From: Brumimicrobium mesophilum
GTDB lineage: Bacteria > Bacteroidota > Bacteroidia > Flavobacteriales_D > Crocinitomicaceae
DNA length: 64,000 bases
Assembly: GCF_003025005.1 (NCBI RefSeq)
Contig: NZ_PVSS01000001.1
Span: 248,001 to 312,000 of the forward strand
Reading direction: 5' to 3'
Shown: piece after piece, positions 18,750-24,041 of the stretch
Numbering within the stretch: the first letter of the stretch is position 1
Layout: each line of letters opens with the position of its first letter
The notes under the pieces: model-generated
Seen by the model: the letters and a program-made list of their open reading frames with translations, nothing else
Databases searched by the model: none
Told to the model about the DNA's origin: nothing
Position numbers and translations under genes: made by a program

Positions 18750-19166
18750 TTATGTCGTAGCAGAACATTTTCCACAGATTCCTTTGGCTTGAATTTCCTG
18801 TTTCTCAATAATAAACCCAGGAACCTTTATCTTAGGTAATTCATCTATTTCCACACAAAAAACTTCCTGGCATTGGCGACATTGAAAGTGAATATGATTG
18901 TGCTCATGTAATCCTTCATCGTGATTACAAACCACGTCACATAGCGCTAATTTTTTTACATCACCTGGCATTACGATTTCATGAATAACCCCATTATTGA
19001 TAAAGGATTTGATCGTTCTGTACAAGGTAATTCTATCAAAATCTTTCAACTCATCTTCAATATCTTGAGTCGATACAGCGTGATCATTTCTTATAAAAAT
19101 ATCAAGAACTTCCTTTCTAAAAGGAGTAACACGTAAATTCTTTTTTTTTAAAATATCAACATTCAT
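18750..19166 (-). CDS. Fur-family metalloregulator, Zur-like
   Basis: 138 aa. The N-terminal winged helix is RVTPFRKEVLDIF ... RITLYRTIKSFINNGVIHEI. It is followed by a metal-binding dimerisation domain with a His/Cys-rich stretch (CDVVCNHDEGLHEHNHIHF, about 76-94) and two CxxC pairs (C96/C99 and C131/C134) for structural zinc. Fur-family proteins repress target genes when loaded with their metal. The gene is divergent from a ZnuD-like TonB receptor, and a perfect palindrome lies 2 nt beyond its own ATG, so self-regulation and control of the receptor are likely. That context favours zinc (Zur) over iron, but metal identity is inference. Confidence 0.88.
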   Translation of the reverse strand: MNVDILKKKNLRVTPFRKEVLDIFIRNDHAVSTQDIEDELKDFDRITLYRTIKSFINNGVIHEIVMPGDVKKLALCDVVCNHDEGLHEHNHIHFQCRQCQEVFCVEIDELPKIKVPGFIIEKQEIQAKGICGKCSATT

Positions 19167-19168
19167 AG

Positions 19169-19185
19169 ATGCAATATTGTTGCAT
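19169..19185. promoter_or_regulatory. candidate Fur/Zur operator
   Basis: ATGCAATATTGTTGCAT is a 17-bp inverted repeat (perfect 6-bp arms, 5-bp centre). It sits 2 nt from the fur-like ATG and 6 nt upstream of the receptor's -7 box, so a bound repressor would block both directions. Confidence 0.6.
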
Positions 19186-19191
19186 TTGTAT

Positions 19192-19199
19192 TATATTTG
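19192..19199 (+). promoter_or_regulatory. -7 box of the TonB receptor gene
   Basis: TATATTTG, 17 nt before the chosen ATG at 19217, just beyond the palindrome. Confidence 0.55.
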
Positions 19200-19216
19200 T
19201 GCCAGATTCAAATTCA

Positions 19217-21472
19217 ATGAAAGCAAAAATAGTCATTTTTCTTTACTTTATTTTCTCTTTTCAACTCTATTCTCAAGAGGTTGCTGGAAAGGTTATCAAT
19301 TCCGAATCTAAGGAAGTTATCACTTTCGCAAAAGTAGGTTTTCCCGATATAAACAACTATACCAGCACGGATGTAAATGGAGATTTTTCCTTCGATAACC
19401 TTCCAAAAACTGTTTTAAGAATTAAAGCAACTGCATTTGATTATAAAGTACTTGTTAAGGAAGTAGATATATCAAAAGGAGGACCATTAATTATAGAAAT
19501 GACTCCTTTACACACCGTTTTTGAAGAAGTTAAAATTACAGCTTCGGAAGGTCGTATTGAAAGAGAGAACATCACTTCTGTAGAAGTGGCTACAAAAGAT
19601 GAGTTGTTCCAAACAGGTGCTACCACTTTGGGAGAATCATTGTCATTAATTCCCGGAGTTCAATCGAGTTCTGTAGGAATGGGAATTAGCAAACCTATAA
19701 TTCGAGGACTTTCAGGAATGCGCGTTGTGACCTATAACAACGGTTTACGAATAGAAAATCAGCAATGGGGAAGCGATCATGGAATGGCAGCATCCGAGTT
19801 AGGTTTAGGAAAAGTTGAAGTCGTTAAAGGACCTTCCTCCCTACTCTATGGAGCAGATGCTTTGGGTGGAGTAATTCATTTCATCGATGAGCCTTATTTG
19901 CAAAAAGGTAAAAGCGACGCATATTTTTCTACCAAGTTTGAATCTAATTCTATGGGAACAACAAACGAATTAGGGTTTAGAATTCATAAAGGTAAATGGC
20001 GCGCAAACATTCATGCAAACTATGAAAACCATGCCGATTTTCAACTACCAGGTGGGAATTTCATTAAAAACTCAAGATTCTGGGGAACTAATTTCAAAAC
20101 AAGTTTAGGCTTCCGAAATAAAAATTATCAATTAAATATTCGTTATCAGCTTGGTTACAAAAGATTAGGTATTCCAGGACATTCTCACAACGAGAATCCA
20201 CAAGCCATTGATTTTATTTCGAATGACAGAAAACGAGAAGGAACACTTCCTGCTCAATTTAATTTTAACAACTTCCTTTTAATTGAAAACACAATTTTCT
20301 TTAATCGCTCAAGTTTATTGATTCAATTAGGAAACACCAATAGTGATCTACAGGAATACGATGAAAAAGTAACATTGCCGTTTACACATTTAAATGTAAA
20401 CAATACAACTTATAACATTCGTTACACTTATAAAGTGACAGAGAAAATTGGATTAAAAACAGGAGTTCAAGGAATGGCGAAAATCAACAAGAATCGTTTT
20501 CCAAGTTCAGCATTATTAATTCCAGACGCCAACACATTCGACAATGGAATTTACGCCCTAGCCGATTATGAAACAGGAAAATGGCGTTTCCAAGGAGGTT
20601 TAAGATATGATATTCGTTCACTTTCTGTGCTGAGTTCACAAGATTTAGATTCTACTTTGACCACAAATATCAACACAAGTGCAACAAATAAAACCTTCCA
20701 AGGTATAAATTACTCTGCAGGATTTGTAAGAAATACTAAGCTTACTTCAATCAGATTTAATGCATCGAGTGGATACCGAGCTCCTCATGTTGCAGAATTA
20801 AAAGTTGATGGATTCCATCATGGTTCTTTACGCTATGAACGAGGTGATGAAAATTTAAAATCGGAACATGCCATCCAACTTGACGCTGCTTTGGAATTGC
20901 ATTTTGAACATATTGAAATTATTATAAATCCATATTATAATCGCATTTCAAATTTTATATTCTTGAATCAAACAGAAGATTTTGCAGGTAGTTTTCCAAT
21001 TTTTGAATATGGACAAACCGACCTTGCCCATTTGTATGGTGGAGAAGTTGGAATTCATTATCACCCACACAAAATTCACCGTTTACATATAAATAGTAAT
21101 TTCTCGGCCACGATCGCAGAAACACAAGATGGCTCTCCAATTAGCTTAATACCTCAACCCAATTTAAACACTTCCATTCGAATTGATATTAACAACAAGC
21201 ATAAAATTAGAATTAAAAATATTATTCTAGAACACGCTTACTATCTTCCTCAAAATAGAGTTGGGCTAAATGAAACTACTTCTGTAGATTATCACTTATT
21301 GAATTTAGCAGCTCATCTATCAATAGGACAACAAGAAAGTTTAGATATTTCAATTGGAGTTCGAAATTTATTAAACACCAATTATAGAGGGCATTTATCC
21401 TCATTAAAAAACCTTGGTCTTTCACAACCAGGAATTAATGCTTTTGTAGCATTAAAATATAAAATCCAGTAA
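19217..21472 (+). CDS. TonB-dependent receptor, ZnuD-like, with CarboxypepD_reg N-domain
   Basis: 751 aa from the ATG at 19217 (MKAKIVIFLYFIFSF signal peptide). The frame is also open from 19169, but that ATG is inside the operator and upstream of the promoter box. Order: carboxypeptidase-like domain (EVAGKVINSESKEVITFAKV), plug (GESLSLIPGVQ ... KPIIRGLSGMRVVTYNNGLR ... VEVVKGPSSLLYGADALGGV), then a 22-strand-type barrel ending in AFVALKYKIQ. Extracellular loops are His-rich: GIPGHSHNE near residue 330, DGFHHGSLRYERGDEN, HYHPHKIHRLH. This is the pattern of zinc receptors such as ZnuD. Its neighbours, a Fur-like regulator and a Cys/His-rich lipoprotein, support metal uptake across the outer membrane. 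Confidence 0.9.
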   Translation: MKAKIVIFLYFIFSFQLYSQEVAGKVINSESKEVITFAKVGFPDINNYTSTDVNGDFSFDNLPKTVLRIKATAFDYKVLVKEVDISKGGPLIIEMTPLHTVFEEVKITASEGRIERENITSVEVATKDELFQTGATTLGESLSLIPGVQSSSVGMGISKPIIRGLSGMRVVTYNNGLRIENQQWGSDHGMAASELGLGKVEVVKGPSSLLYGADALGGVIHFIDEPYLQKGKSDAYFSTKFESNSMGTTNELGFRIHKGKWRANIHANYENHADFQLPGGNFIKNSRFWGTNFKTSLGFRNKNYQLNIRYQLGYKRLGIPGHSHNENPQAIDFISNDRKREGTLPAQFNFNNFLLIENTIFFNRSSLLIQLGNTNSDLQEYDEKVTLPFTHLNVNNTTYNIRYTYKVTEKIGLKTGVQGMAKINKNRFPSSALLIPDANTFDNGIYALADYETGKWRFQGGLRYDIRSLSVLSSQDLDSTLTTNINTSATNKTFQGINYSAGFVRNTKLTSIRFNASSGYRAPHVAELKVDGFHHGSLRYERGDENLKSEHAIQLDAALELHFEHIEIIINPYYNRISNFIFLNQTEDFAGSFPIFEYGQTDLAHLYGGEVGIHYHPHKIHRLHINSNFSATIAETQDGSPISLIPQPNLNTSIRIDINNKHKIRIKNIILEHAYYLPQNRVGLNETTSVDYHLLNLAAHLSIGQQESLDISIGVRNLLNTNYRGHLSSLKNLGLSQPGINAFVALKYKIQ

Positions 21473-21492
21473 CCAAACAATAATAAATAAAT

Positions 21493-21696
21493 ATGAAAAA
21501 GAGACTATTTTTAAGCGCATTAGTGGCAGTAGGACTATCCTTCACATCATGTAAAAAATGTTCAGAGTGTCATTATGATGGACCAAATGGTGAAATCGAA
21601 TTAGGTGAATACTGTGGTGATGATTTAGAAGAGCTAGAAGGTTCTGGAACAGAAATTAATGGTGTGAAATACGAAGTTCATTGCCACGAACACTAG
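21493..21696 (+). CDS. small Cys/His-rich lipoprotein, putative metal binding
   Basis: 67 aa with a lipoprotein signal peptide (MKKRLFLSALVAVGLSFTSC, Cys20). The roughly 47-residue mature part holds CKKCSECHYD at the start, a lone Cys in GEYCGDDLEELEG, and VHCHEH at the very end, giving many possible metal ligands in a tiny acidic protein. The gene begins 20 nt after the receptor's stop codon on the same strand, so it is almost certainly in the same operon. Inference: periplasmic or outer-membrane-attached metal binder working with the TonB receptor. No characterised family is recognised, and binding is unproven. Confidence 0.82.
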   Translation: MKKRLFLSALVAVGLSFTSCKKCSECHYDGPNGEIELGEYCGDDLEELEGSGTEINGVKYEVHCHEH

Positions 21697-21865
21697 GTTA
21701 TAGATGGAAAAAGAGAATGGAGAATGAGTGAAAATTAGCGAAATATTAATAATTTTCTTCTAAATTTCATTCATTCTCTTATTCAACTCATCTTTTAGGC
21801 AACCCTATTTAGAAAATGCAAAATTAACAATTGTTAATTGTTAATTCTCAATTCTCATTTATCCC

Positions 21866-21873
21866 TATCTTTG
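21866..21873 (+). promoter_or_regulatory. -7 box of the 715-aa secreted protein gene
   Basis: TATCTTTG matches TAnnTTTG and lies 20 nt before the ATG at 21894. It falls within the open frame upstream of that ATG, supporting the shorter start. Confidence 0.5.
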
Positions 21874-21893
21874 CAATTAAAAAACAATTTAAA

Positions 21894-24041
21894 ATGCAAT
21901 TTGGATTTCATAAAGTTATTGCTACAAAACTTATTCTTCTGGTATTTTTGATCAGTTCTTTTAGCTTCAATAGTAACACTGTCAATGCACAATACAATTT
22001 ATTCTCAAGTTTTTCAGAAGTTCAATTACGTATAGACACTAATATCTATAAATTCACTTTGGATAGAATTTTTGTGCAAAACGAATGGCAAATTCCTTTT
22101 GAATATCAAGAAGTGGATCCAATTGTAGAATTTCGAATATTTCCAAAAAACAAAGATATTATTCCAAATTCTTGGATATTAAAACCAGCCAGTGAATATA
22201 AAATTGTAGACTCTCTAACTTTGCGAGTAGATGGATATCTTCATTTCAAAGTCCAATTCAACGACCTTTCTCAAACTGATTTTTTAAATATTGTACTGGA
22301 AGAAGAAGGCAAAACAATAGCACTTCCAATATTTCCATACTCCAACACTTTTGCTACAATTTACCCTGGAGAAGGAGATTTGTATATTGGAGATGAAAAG
22401 ACTTTTGAACTGGTGACCAATCGTCCTGAAAACATTGTAATTGATCCTATTTGGAAACAAAATGAGAATTACGAATATCGTATTCATCGCGAAAAAGATA
22501 AAATTTGGTTTACGATAATCCCTTTAGAAACTGGAAATATTGATGTTGATTTCTTGATTCAATTGTACAGGCCTAACATGAAAAACAATAGACCGCAATA
22601 CTTTTTGGACAGACAGTCATTCACTTTTAATGTAAAAGGTTCTCGTTTAAAGTTCCTAACATTTGAAAATCGTGAAGTTATTTGGGAAACCCAAAACCCT
22701 AAAGGAGTTGAACTTCAGATTGACAACCACAGACTTCTGGCGATTAACAAAACATATAGGTTAGAAGCAACTGATGAAAGTGGAGGCCCACTTATAGCTG
22801 AAATGTACACTGTAAGAAGATTGAGTAATGACAAAATTCTTGTGATGTTCAGGCCATACAATTATCATAAAATTTCGTCGGGCTATTTATTCATAAAAGA
22901 TGGAGACGCTCCAAAATTCATCACCAATATCAACATCCTTCCCGAGCCTAAAATCAGTGAAATAAGTATTCTACGTCAAGGAGGAAGTTGGGTAAAATCT
23001 AAACAAGTTTATCCCGGTGAAACAGTTGAAATTCGATTAGAAGGAGAAGGAATGAGTCGAACGGACATTAAATTTGAAGATTTAATTGATGTATCCAACG
23101 ACAGTTTAATTAGAAATGAATCTGTAGCCAGTTACTTATTGAAAGTTCCAATCGACATTCGAAAAAAGAGTGTCAATATCTACTTTGGAGATACAAAAAC
23201 GGGAGTAATGCTAGATATAATTGAATACCAACGACCTAAAGAGTTGGATTTTGTTATTGTCGAATATGGTGGAACGCCCATAGTAGCAAACACCGCCTCA
23301 CAACCAATTCTTCACGAAAAAACGATTGGTGATGTTAATATCCAATTTGACAATTTATATATTGATGATGCTTTTAGGCTTTATGGTAAACAATATTTGG
23401 AAATAGAAATCCGGATTACAGACAATAACAACAAGCTTATTGAGAAACAAACTATCGACGATATTGAGATTTGCCCTGGATCTAATTCACCAAGAAGTTT
23501 TGCATATACAAGTGCAAATGGCTGCATGAACGAGCCTATATCTATTAACGATTATATTTCTAACAAAACCCACAGTATGGGTGATTGGTCTAAAATCGAA
23601 TTAATCATAAAACATCGAAAAAATTTATACGGCGGTCAAGGTTATACAAGTCGTGTGGAAATTATTAAAGCTAAATACATTGCTTTTGATGTGGACCTTT
23701 CTATTCCAGCGGGTTTAATTATTAAAACTGTAGGCGAGCCAGGATTCCCTGGATTAAGTGGTATTTCACATTCTATGTTGGCTCAATTTTCTTTCTATAA
23801 AAGAGATGAAATTCAAAAGATTCGTCCTTTTAAAATTGGTGCTGGTTTCTTGGCAAAAAACGCATTTAACTTTAACTCCGATGCTGAAGATAGAGATTTA
23901 GGAATTGTAGTATTAGGTTCAGTTTATCCTACAGGAAAAAAACGAAGATTCTCATTCCCTCTCTATGCTGGAATGGGCTATTTTTTAAATAATGAGAAGT
24001 TCTTTTTCTTAATTGGACCTGGAGTTAGGATTAATTTTTAG
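21894..24041 (+). CDS. large secreted or outer-membrane protein of unknown function
   Basis: 715 aa from the ATG at 21894; an ATG at 21831 precedes the promoter box and is rejected. An N-terminal signal (about residues 12-35, ending NTVNAQ) leads into a long beta-rich region with several Ig-like units (GSRLKFLTFENREVIWETQ; KQVYPGETVEIRLEGEG). The C-terminal 100 residues (VDLSIPAGLIIKTVGEPGFP ... AGMGYFLNNEKFFFLIGPGV) have the alternating pattern of a small beta barrel ending in a terminal aromatic/hydrophobic strand. I do not recognise the family. A multi-domain surface protein anchored by a barrel is plausible. No T9SS sorting domain is visible. Confidence 0.8.
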   Translation: MQFGFHKVIATKLILLVFLISSFSFNSNTVNAQYNLFSSFSEVQLRIDTNIYKFTLDRIFVQNEWQIPFEYQEVDPIVEFRIFPKNKDIIPNSWILKPASEYKIVDSLTLRVDGYLHFKVQFNDLSQTDFLNIVLEEEGKTIALPIFPYSNTFATIYPGEGDLYIGDEKTFELVTNRPENIVIDPIWKQNENYEYRIHREKDKIWFTIIPLETGNIDVDFLIQLYRPNMKNNRPQYFLDRQSFTFNVKGSRLKFLTFENREVIWETQNPKGVELQIDNHRLLAINKTYRLEATDESGGPLIAEMYTVRRLSNDKILVMFRPYNYHKISSGYLFIKDGDAPKFITNINILPEPKISEISILRQGGSWVKSKQVYPGETVEIRLEGEGMSRTDIKFEDLIDVSNDSLIRNESVASYLLKVPIDIRKKSVNIYFGDTKTGVMLDIIEYQRPKELDFVIVEYGGTPIVANTASQPILHEKTIGDVNIQFDNLYIDDAFRLYGKQYLEIEIRITDNNNKLIEKQTIDDIEICPGSNSPRSFAYTSANGCMNEPISINDYISNKTHSMGDWSKIELIIKHRKNLYGGQGYTSRVEIIKAKYIAFDVDLSIPAGLIIKTVGEPGFPGLSGISHSMLAQFSFYKRDEIQKIRPFKIGAGFLAKNAFNFNSDAEDRDLGIVVLGSVYPTGKKRRFSFPLYAGMGYFLNNEKFFFLIGPGVRINF

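Follow-up and report, generated by a model that had tools for sequence, protein, structure and literature searches.

Among the described systems that resemble the locus reported here, the closest is ZnuD of Neisseria meningitidis (structure 4rdr), a TonB-dependent receptor controlled by the repressor Zur, in which a buried zinc site is made up of Asp-99, His-100, Glu-340, and His-499 and an outer site includes His-241/243 (PMC4557270). Among the Bacteroidota, a TonB receptor with a dedicated lipoprotein partner is found in BtuG-BtuB of Bacteroides, and on the regulator side the nearest solved relative is E. coli Zur (4mtd). To our knowledge, the path of zinc after its entry into the periplasm through a TonB receptor is little understood, and we know of no described example of a dedicated metal hand-off after TonB transport. 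In this work we analysed a stretch of 64,000 nucleotides of Brumimicrobium mesophilum (hereafter the window; RefSeq assembly GCF_003025005.1, contig NZ_PVSS01000001.1, positions 248,001 to 312,000), in which the gene of a Zur-type, Fur-family regulator diverges from that of a ZnuD-like receptor, and the latter is followed by the gene of a very small Cys/His lipoprotein. We propose, with a probability of about 0.7 judged from sequence comparison, that the locus is a Zur-repressed zinc import module in which the lipoprotein is a zinc-binding partner of the receptor. Systems of this kind are known; what is new is the lipoprotein family and a His turn predicted at the exit of the receptor.

ZnuD is the best sequence match of the window's receptor; Asp-99, His-100, His-499, and His-241/243 are aligned and conserved, and the window's receptor, like ZnuD, stands under a putative control of the Zur type, by way of its box. 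Unlike ZnuD, the receptor carries an extra CarbopepD_reg domain, the fold alignments reach only 18-19% identity, and the module has a predicted periplasmic turn with five His, a partner lipoprotein, and a ZIP transporter operon that shares the box. The regulator has in common with E. coli Zur the FUR domain and the structural CxxC pairs, and it has Cys and His in register with the sensor site; its box is of the TGCAACANTGTTGCA type, unlike the E. coli box, and its score lies far under the NCBIfam cut-off for Zur. BtuG is a surface lid for vitamin B12; the window's lipoprotein, in contrast, has a mature part of 48 residues and a model that matches no solved structure.

Results and discussion

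Gene organization

The window's genome comprises 3.88 Mb in 89 contigs, and its nearest relatives among the public records compared belong to the marine genus Brumimicrobium (B. glaciale, B. aurantiacum, and B. oceani). In an initial annotation, made from the letters alone, the regulator and receptor genes were described as divergent and separated by 50 base pairs (bp) holding a perfect palindrome, with a lipoprotein of 67 amino acids (aa) carrying CKKCSECH and VHCHEH directly behind the receptor. The coordinates (Table 1) agree: the gap between the divergent starts occupies 19167-19216, the palindrome has perfect 6-bp arms (ATGCAA and TTGCAT around TATTG), 20 bp separate the receptor from the lipoprotein, and both motifs are as quoted. 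The best start of the receptor is 19217, where its signal peptide begins; the mechanically called open reading frame from 19169 would cross the palindrome.

Table 1. Features of the locus (positions in the window)
Feature	Position	Strand	Basis or conservation
Zur-type Fur-family repressor, 138 aa	18750..19166	-	Pfam FUR; best solved match E. coli Zur
Putative Zur box ATGCAATATTGTTGCAT	19169..19185	.	2 bp before zur start codon, 31 bp before receptor start codon
TATATTTG, fits -7 element TAnnTTTG	19192..19199	+	Behind the box in 7/7 receptor and 5/5 ZIP-operon promoters
ZnuD-like TonB-dependent receptor, 751 aa	19217..21472	+	Pfam, sequence profile, AlphaFold2 (AF2) model
D187-H188, aligned with ZnuD Asp-99/His-100 (buried site)	19775..19780	+	D in 27/28, H in 28/28 receptors
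GIPGHSHNE loop; H322/H324 aligned with ZnuD H241/H243 (outer site)	20168..20194	+	Each 26/28
E380, at a place that would suit ZnuD Glu-340 (left unaligned)	20354..20356	+	28/28
H534-H535; H534 aligned with ZnuD His-499	20816..20821	+	28/28 and 27/28
HYHPHKIHRLH (His 614, 616, 618, 621, 624), predicted periplasmic turn	21056..21088	+	Each His 28/28; strand count in model
Cys/His lipoprotein, 67 aa	21493..21696	+	Lipobox, linkage to receptor
CSECH, invariant CxxCH	21559..21573	+	31/31 linked copies
HCHEH, C-terminus	21679..21693	+	HCx(1-3)H invariant, 31/31 linked copies

The box and its targets

Taken by itself the palindrome was dropped as evidence, since an inverted repeat with perfect 6-bp arms and a spacer of 3-7 bp also turns up in 7.9% of 20,000 versions of the 50-bp gap with shuffled bases. 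It rises above chance because it is conserved and because 13 of 15 matches to its core fall at two promoters. Across ten genomes of the genus, the core TGCAANANTNTTGCA has 15 exact matches (6 for the reversed control pattern): eight in the zur/receptor gap, five at the promoter of an operon of two genes, encoding an S-adenosylmethionine (SAM) methyltransferase and a ZIP transporter (Pfam Zip, 89 bits), and two inside unrelated genes. Both targets are present in the window's own genome, where ATGCAATATTGTTGCAT has its sole perfect copy. The core TGCAATATTGTTGCA is identical in the window and six other loci compared (L011-L014, L017, L018); in two genomes of the genus (G005, G008) the box differs from it in the middle. 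All 12 divergent zur-receptor gaps that were scored contain a site at most two mismatches from TGCAACANTGTTGCA. Just behind the box stands TAnnTTTG, the -7 promoter element of Bacteroidota, in all 7 receptor promoters and all 5 ZIP-operon promoters compared, so that the box is positioned for repression. A scan for sigma-70 promoters and terminators stayed at chance level.

A wider consensus at three mismatches gave 33 sites in the window's own genome against 24 for the control, and nothing useful beyond the two known targets. Six of its 14 one-mismatch sites were inspected, namely the ZIP site (C89) and five inside unrelated genes (C8, C11, C12:127121, C34, and C45:4260). Outside the genus, ten hand-picked genomes carrying the pair, six of the same family and four (G037, G048, G055, G057) of two others, held 29 sites within one mismatch of TGCAACANTGTTGCA, whereas the reversed control gave 3; counted by hand, 14 belong to the zur/receptor promoter and 15 lie elsewhere. 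One of the latter precedes a ZigA-like GTPase (G019), one precedes FolE and then a ZigA-like GTPase (G011), and one heads an operon for DsrE, threonyl-tRNA synthetase (ThrRS), and dCTP deaminase (G011; L163:4054-6970, where the gene run is DsrE-like, small protein, ThrRS, dCTP deaminase). The two GTPases score 553 and 550 bits against a ZigA cut-off of 600. FolE, ThrRS paralogues, and the ZigA-like GTPase family are classic Zur targets, and these sites, though from two genomes, are the strongest evidence that the regulator may sense zinc. Single sites in G019 stand before a protein taken for MerC-like (without NCBIfam match) and beside an oxidoreductase; two have unrelated genes nearby (G055, G011), and five fall within genes (G014, G013, two in G048, G037).

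With this motif the zinc regulons of Flavobacteriales become readable from sequence. A survey of Zur sites (PMC3087516) used those of Actinobacteria, Bacilli, and Proteobacteria, and its passages on Zur give none for Bacteroidetes; in the open-licence PMC literature, going by titles and abstract openings, nothing on a Bacteroidota Zur regulon or on a zinc lipoprotein beside a TonB receptor matches the module.

The regulator

The regulator scores 35.1 bits with Pfam FUR (cut-off 23.1), and its best NCBIfam match is Zur PRK11639 with 41.6 bits, far under the cut-off of 167; it is thus outside that equivalog and only Zur-like in function. Among solved structures E. coli Zur (4mtd) came first (E 1.3e-6), followed by PerR. 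Residues H62, C76, H89, C96, C99, C131, and C134 line up with the zinc ligands of E. coli Zur. The structural pairs C96/C99 and C131/C134 are invariant in the 19 rows aligned; at the putative sensor site H62, C76, and H89 are in register, but the Cys recurs in two paralogues and some rows lack H89.

Other Fur-family genes stand in different settings. At G000:C23 (L112:2862-4348) a third one diverges from a thioredoxin-reductase-like oxidoreductase gene, with the 3-mismatch box ATGCGACTATGTTGCAA at its start, and in G019 (L159) a box lies 48 bp before a similar oxidoreductase gene. At G000:C56 (L113:2575-2985, minus strand) a paralogue about 38% identical to the window's regulator stands directly before a cation diffusion facilitator-like efflux gene and may control metal export. 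In three loci of family f3 (L175, L176, and L134, in G061, G114, and G101) a Fur-family gene follows the lipoprotein gene in the same direction and does not face the receptor.

The receptor

The receptor consists of an N-terminal CarbopepD_reg_2 domain, a plug, and a 22-strand barrel, according to Pfam and the AF2 model (mean predicted local distance difference test score, pLDDT, 86). ZnuD came first in a single-sequence search of solved structures (E 8e-16) and, with a profile of 28 receptor sequences, reached 148 bits, with PhuR next at 76. The NCBIfam ZnuD model NF038289 gives 118.5 bits of a cut-off of 950, and the protein is therefore ZnuD-like and outside the family of that model. The numbering of the ZnuD chain exceeds that of the paper by 14; with this offset D99, H100, H241, H243, D246, H249, D251, and H499 are all correct. 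Three of the four buried-site ligands are aligned and kept, and Glu-340 is unaligned in both the single-sequence and the profile search, with the invariant E380 nearby.

Both His-rich segments that the initial annotation had read as receptor loops are present. GIPGHSHNE falls at the outer zinc site of ZnuD; HYHPHKIHRLH is predicted to be periplasmic and is probably no extracellular loop. Counting strands back from the last one in the model places residues 616-622 in a periplasmic turn, which would put the invariant cluster of five His at the exit of the receptor.

In eleven loci (L015, L016, L019-L022, L024, L026, L089, L096, and L099) a gene for a His-rich protein of about 100-120 aa with signal peptide and CxxC lies directly before the receptor gene (for example L015:3352-3684, L016:3412-3711, L019:3308-3637, L089:4381-4740, and L099:2360-2683). 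These are lineages without the divergent regulator; in L099 a Fur-family gene precedes the His-rich one. Five such genes were scanned and had no Pfam match; the product is possibly a second new accessory factor. In four near relatives (L020, L021, L024, L026) TGCAACT(G/C)ACTTGCA stands 32 bp before the likely start of the His-rich gene. In the other seven loci nothing in the 900 bp upstream of the receptor makes a convincing box, and the same score of three mismatches was reached by 2 of 54 comparison stretches.

The lipoprotein

The lipobox of the lipoprotein is FTSC, with the lipid-bearing Cys at residue 20 (21550-21552). In 31 receptor-linked copies ten positions are invariant (mature numbering: C1, K3, C4, C7, H8, Y9, C22, H44, C45, and H48); this set leaves aside L018, cut by a contig end, and L060, which is not receptor-linked, shares its contig with a linked copy, and retains CxxCH with an altered HCx(1-3)H end. 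Fourteen other small lipoproteins from the same searches keep CxxC and the later Cys, and none of them (0/14) has CxxCH or the HCx(1-3)H end. None lies directly behind a receptor, and one (L015) follows a linked copy. Left out of this count were L029, L030, and L056, longer unrelated proteins matched mainly through their signal peptides. We read this pattern as four Cys that probably form two disulfides common to the wider lipoprotein family, and His that would make up a metal site of the receptor-linked branch. The lipoprotein might instead bind no metal and serve only to help the receptor fold or to stabilise it: all four Cys seem to be structural, and linkage alone is no proof of metal binding. 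The receptor-linked branch, however, retains His 27, 63, and 67, none of which occurs in the 14 other relatives, and we regard a metal-free partner as rather unlikely.

The remark in the initial annotation that the lipoprotein has no characterised family was borne out: it matches no Pfam or NCBIfam family over cut-off, and no PDB chain. Its sequence profile found nothing in the PDB at E 1, and a Pfam search with the 32-member alignment gave five single-member matches (best E 0.022) that are not credible. The AF2 model (pLDDT 87) has a beta hairpin, a helix, and two short strands, for which the best PDB fold comparison (E 1.1) is no match. Membership in the PG1828 lipoprotein family (NF050142) was considered on account of a weak match (E 0.0021) and rejected; the match covers residues 1-22, that is, the signal peptide and lipobox, and the whole protein scores 18.7 bits against a cut-off of 50.

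Two or three tandem lipoprotein copies behind one receptor were seen at L020:6001-6792, G279:C2:30827-31703, and G274:C3:313098-313615, which suggests that dosage matters.

Linkage of lipoprotein and receptor

A lipoprotein profile was run against 299 genomes drawn from the order Flavobacteriales and detected 105 copies in 101 genomes of four families (f1, f3, f9, f13). For 96 copies, a receptor of the clade precedes the lipoprotein on the same strand at no more than 1.5 kb, the gap having a median of 27 bp and a maximum of 745. Five of the nine other copies (G270, G245, G101, G073, G281) directly follow a receptor piece that is broken or cut by a contig edge; in G283, G061, and G114 the receptor, at its end, and the lipoprotein fall on different contigs, each at an edge, with the first part of a lipoprotein gene visible behind the receptor in G283 and G061. 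In G296 no receptor was found within 3 kb ahead of the lipoprotein, whose signal peptide contains a stop codon. A hand count in a first sample of 59 genomes gave, for receptors of at least about 39% identity, the lipoprotein at 21 of 25 and the divergent regulator likewise at 21 of 25. The guess that the lipoprotein is a new accessory factor draws support from its strong linkage to the receptor together with the absence of a known family. In one locus (L132, G270:C1:186500-192300) the receptor-lipoprotein region is duplicated about 4.7 kb apart, one receptor being broken into two frames and both lipoprotein copies being identical.

Evidence against the proposed zinc module and alternative readings

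The suggestion that these genes form a zinc module agrees with the box shared by the ZIP operon and by ZigA-like, FolE, and ThrRS genes of relatives, with ZnuD as the best solved sequence match of the receptor profile and its ligands kept, and with E. coli Zur as best match of the regulator. Several observations tell against it, or against parts of it. The receptor could belong to a module for iron or haem uptake that a ferric uptake regulator controls: with a single sequence, the NCBIfam model TonB-hemin (126.9 bits) exceeds that of ZnuD by a few bits, both far under cut-off; Foldseek ranks PhuR first by E-value, although ZnuD has the highest TM-score among the matches listed; and two boxes in G011 precede a siderophore-type receptor. 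The profile search, in contrast, separates ZnuD clearly from PhuR, the ZnuD ligands are kept, and the box is common to ZIP and, in relatives, to the three kinds of gene just named. ZnuD itself was initially misannotated as a haem receptor (PMC4557270). An iron or haem module appears very improbable to us.

On the side of control, one box in G019 has an MntR-like gene on one side and another receptor gene on the other; C76 is present in two more Fur paralogues of the genome and consequently does not single out Zur; and one paralogue has a similar box (three mismatches) at its own start, so that ownership of the box is not exclusive. G007, of the same genus, lacks the box site, the regulator, and the lipoprotein, and its receptor is only 32% identical. 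ZnuABC was rejected as the inner-membrane partner, the genome having a ZnuA-type ABC operon whose promoter shows no good box.

As to the lipoprotein, 23 of 116 receptor rows have none behind the receptor. Six of these rows break off where the contig ends (G283, G061, G114, G119, and the first halves of genes that are split in G009 and G008); G009 carries a different small Cys/His lipoprotein with CHCH. Sixteen rows are without a Cys/His lipoprotein, including two receptors only 31% identical (G234, G044), and behind that of G044 stands an unrelated 138-aa lipoprotein-like gene; by these sixteen the lipoprotein is not essential to the receptor. A CxCH lipoprotein occupies the same place behind the receptor in G011 (first sample only). 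CxxCH is furthermore the motif of haem c, and its presence in every receptor-linked copy could mean a very small c-type cytochrome. Relatives that keep CxxC without the His, plus the later Cys, point instead to disulfides, the replacement lipoproteins of G009 and G011 have CxCH, which is not a haem motif, and control is of the Zur type; we give a cytochrome hardly any credence.

Proposed mechanism and side of the membrane

In the zinc module as we picture it, Zur would bind ATGCAATATTGTTGCAT when zinc is plentiful, over the receptor promoter and against its own start, and repress both, and would do the same at the methyltransferase-ZIP operon in another part of the genome. Under zinc shortage, the receptor would capture zinc from outside by its GHSH loop and pass it to the buried site (D187, H188, H534, and probably E380); TonB would open the plug, and zinc would leave to the periplasm past the invariant five-His turn. 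The lipoprotein, probably on the same transcript as the receptor, would be anchored in the outer membrane beside it and in contact with it, and would bind zinc by the three His exclusive to the receptor-linked branch, set on a small four-Cys fold. We tentatively favour a role in which it collects zinc at the exit turn and keeps it in the periplasm, ready for the ZIP importer. A ZIP of another member of the order, Riemerella anatipestifer, was shown to import zinc (PMC11960050). That the lipoprotein is the first of a kind of outer-membrane-anchored zinc carriers that dock at the five-His exit and relay zinc to a ZIP importer we put forward as a doubtful extension.

We lean slightly to the periplasmic side for the lipoprotein, because the receptor's His turn is predicted to be periplasmic and no clear export signal is seen. 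In an otherwise identical zinc module the lipoprotein could be flipped to the surface as a capture lid, as BtuG covers its TonB receptor at the Bacteroides surface (PMC10404256). Eight of the 31 linked copies, six of them near relatives, start with C-X-K-(D/E)-(D/E), which counts against the periplasmic side, C-X-K-(D/E)2 being a surface export signal in Capnocytophaga (PMC5080379); the K at +3 is moreover invariant in all 31. The window's own copy starts with CKKCSE, in which the Lys is not followed by two acidic residues; no more than 48 residues make up the mature part; and the five invariant His of the receptor are predicted to cluster at its periplasmic exit. We know of no characterised export signal in this bacterial family, no special search having been made, which also counts against a lid. 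A surface lid is, on balance, a serious possibility that falls somewhat short of an even chance. A lipoprotein of 48 mature residues, apparently Zur-controlled, linked to its receptor in four families of Flavobacteriales, and with His particular to the receptor-linked branch, offers a small handle on periplasmic zinc transfer.

Behind the lipoprotein gene, at 21831-24041 on the plus strand, the window encodes a secreted-looking protein of 736 aa with no Pfam or NCBIfam match; by eye, a similar gene occupies the same place in G002 (L087).

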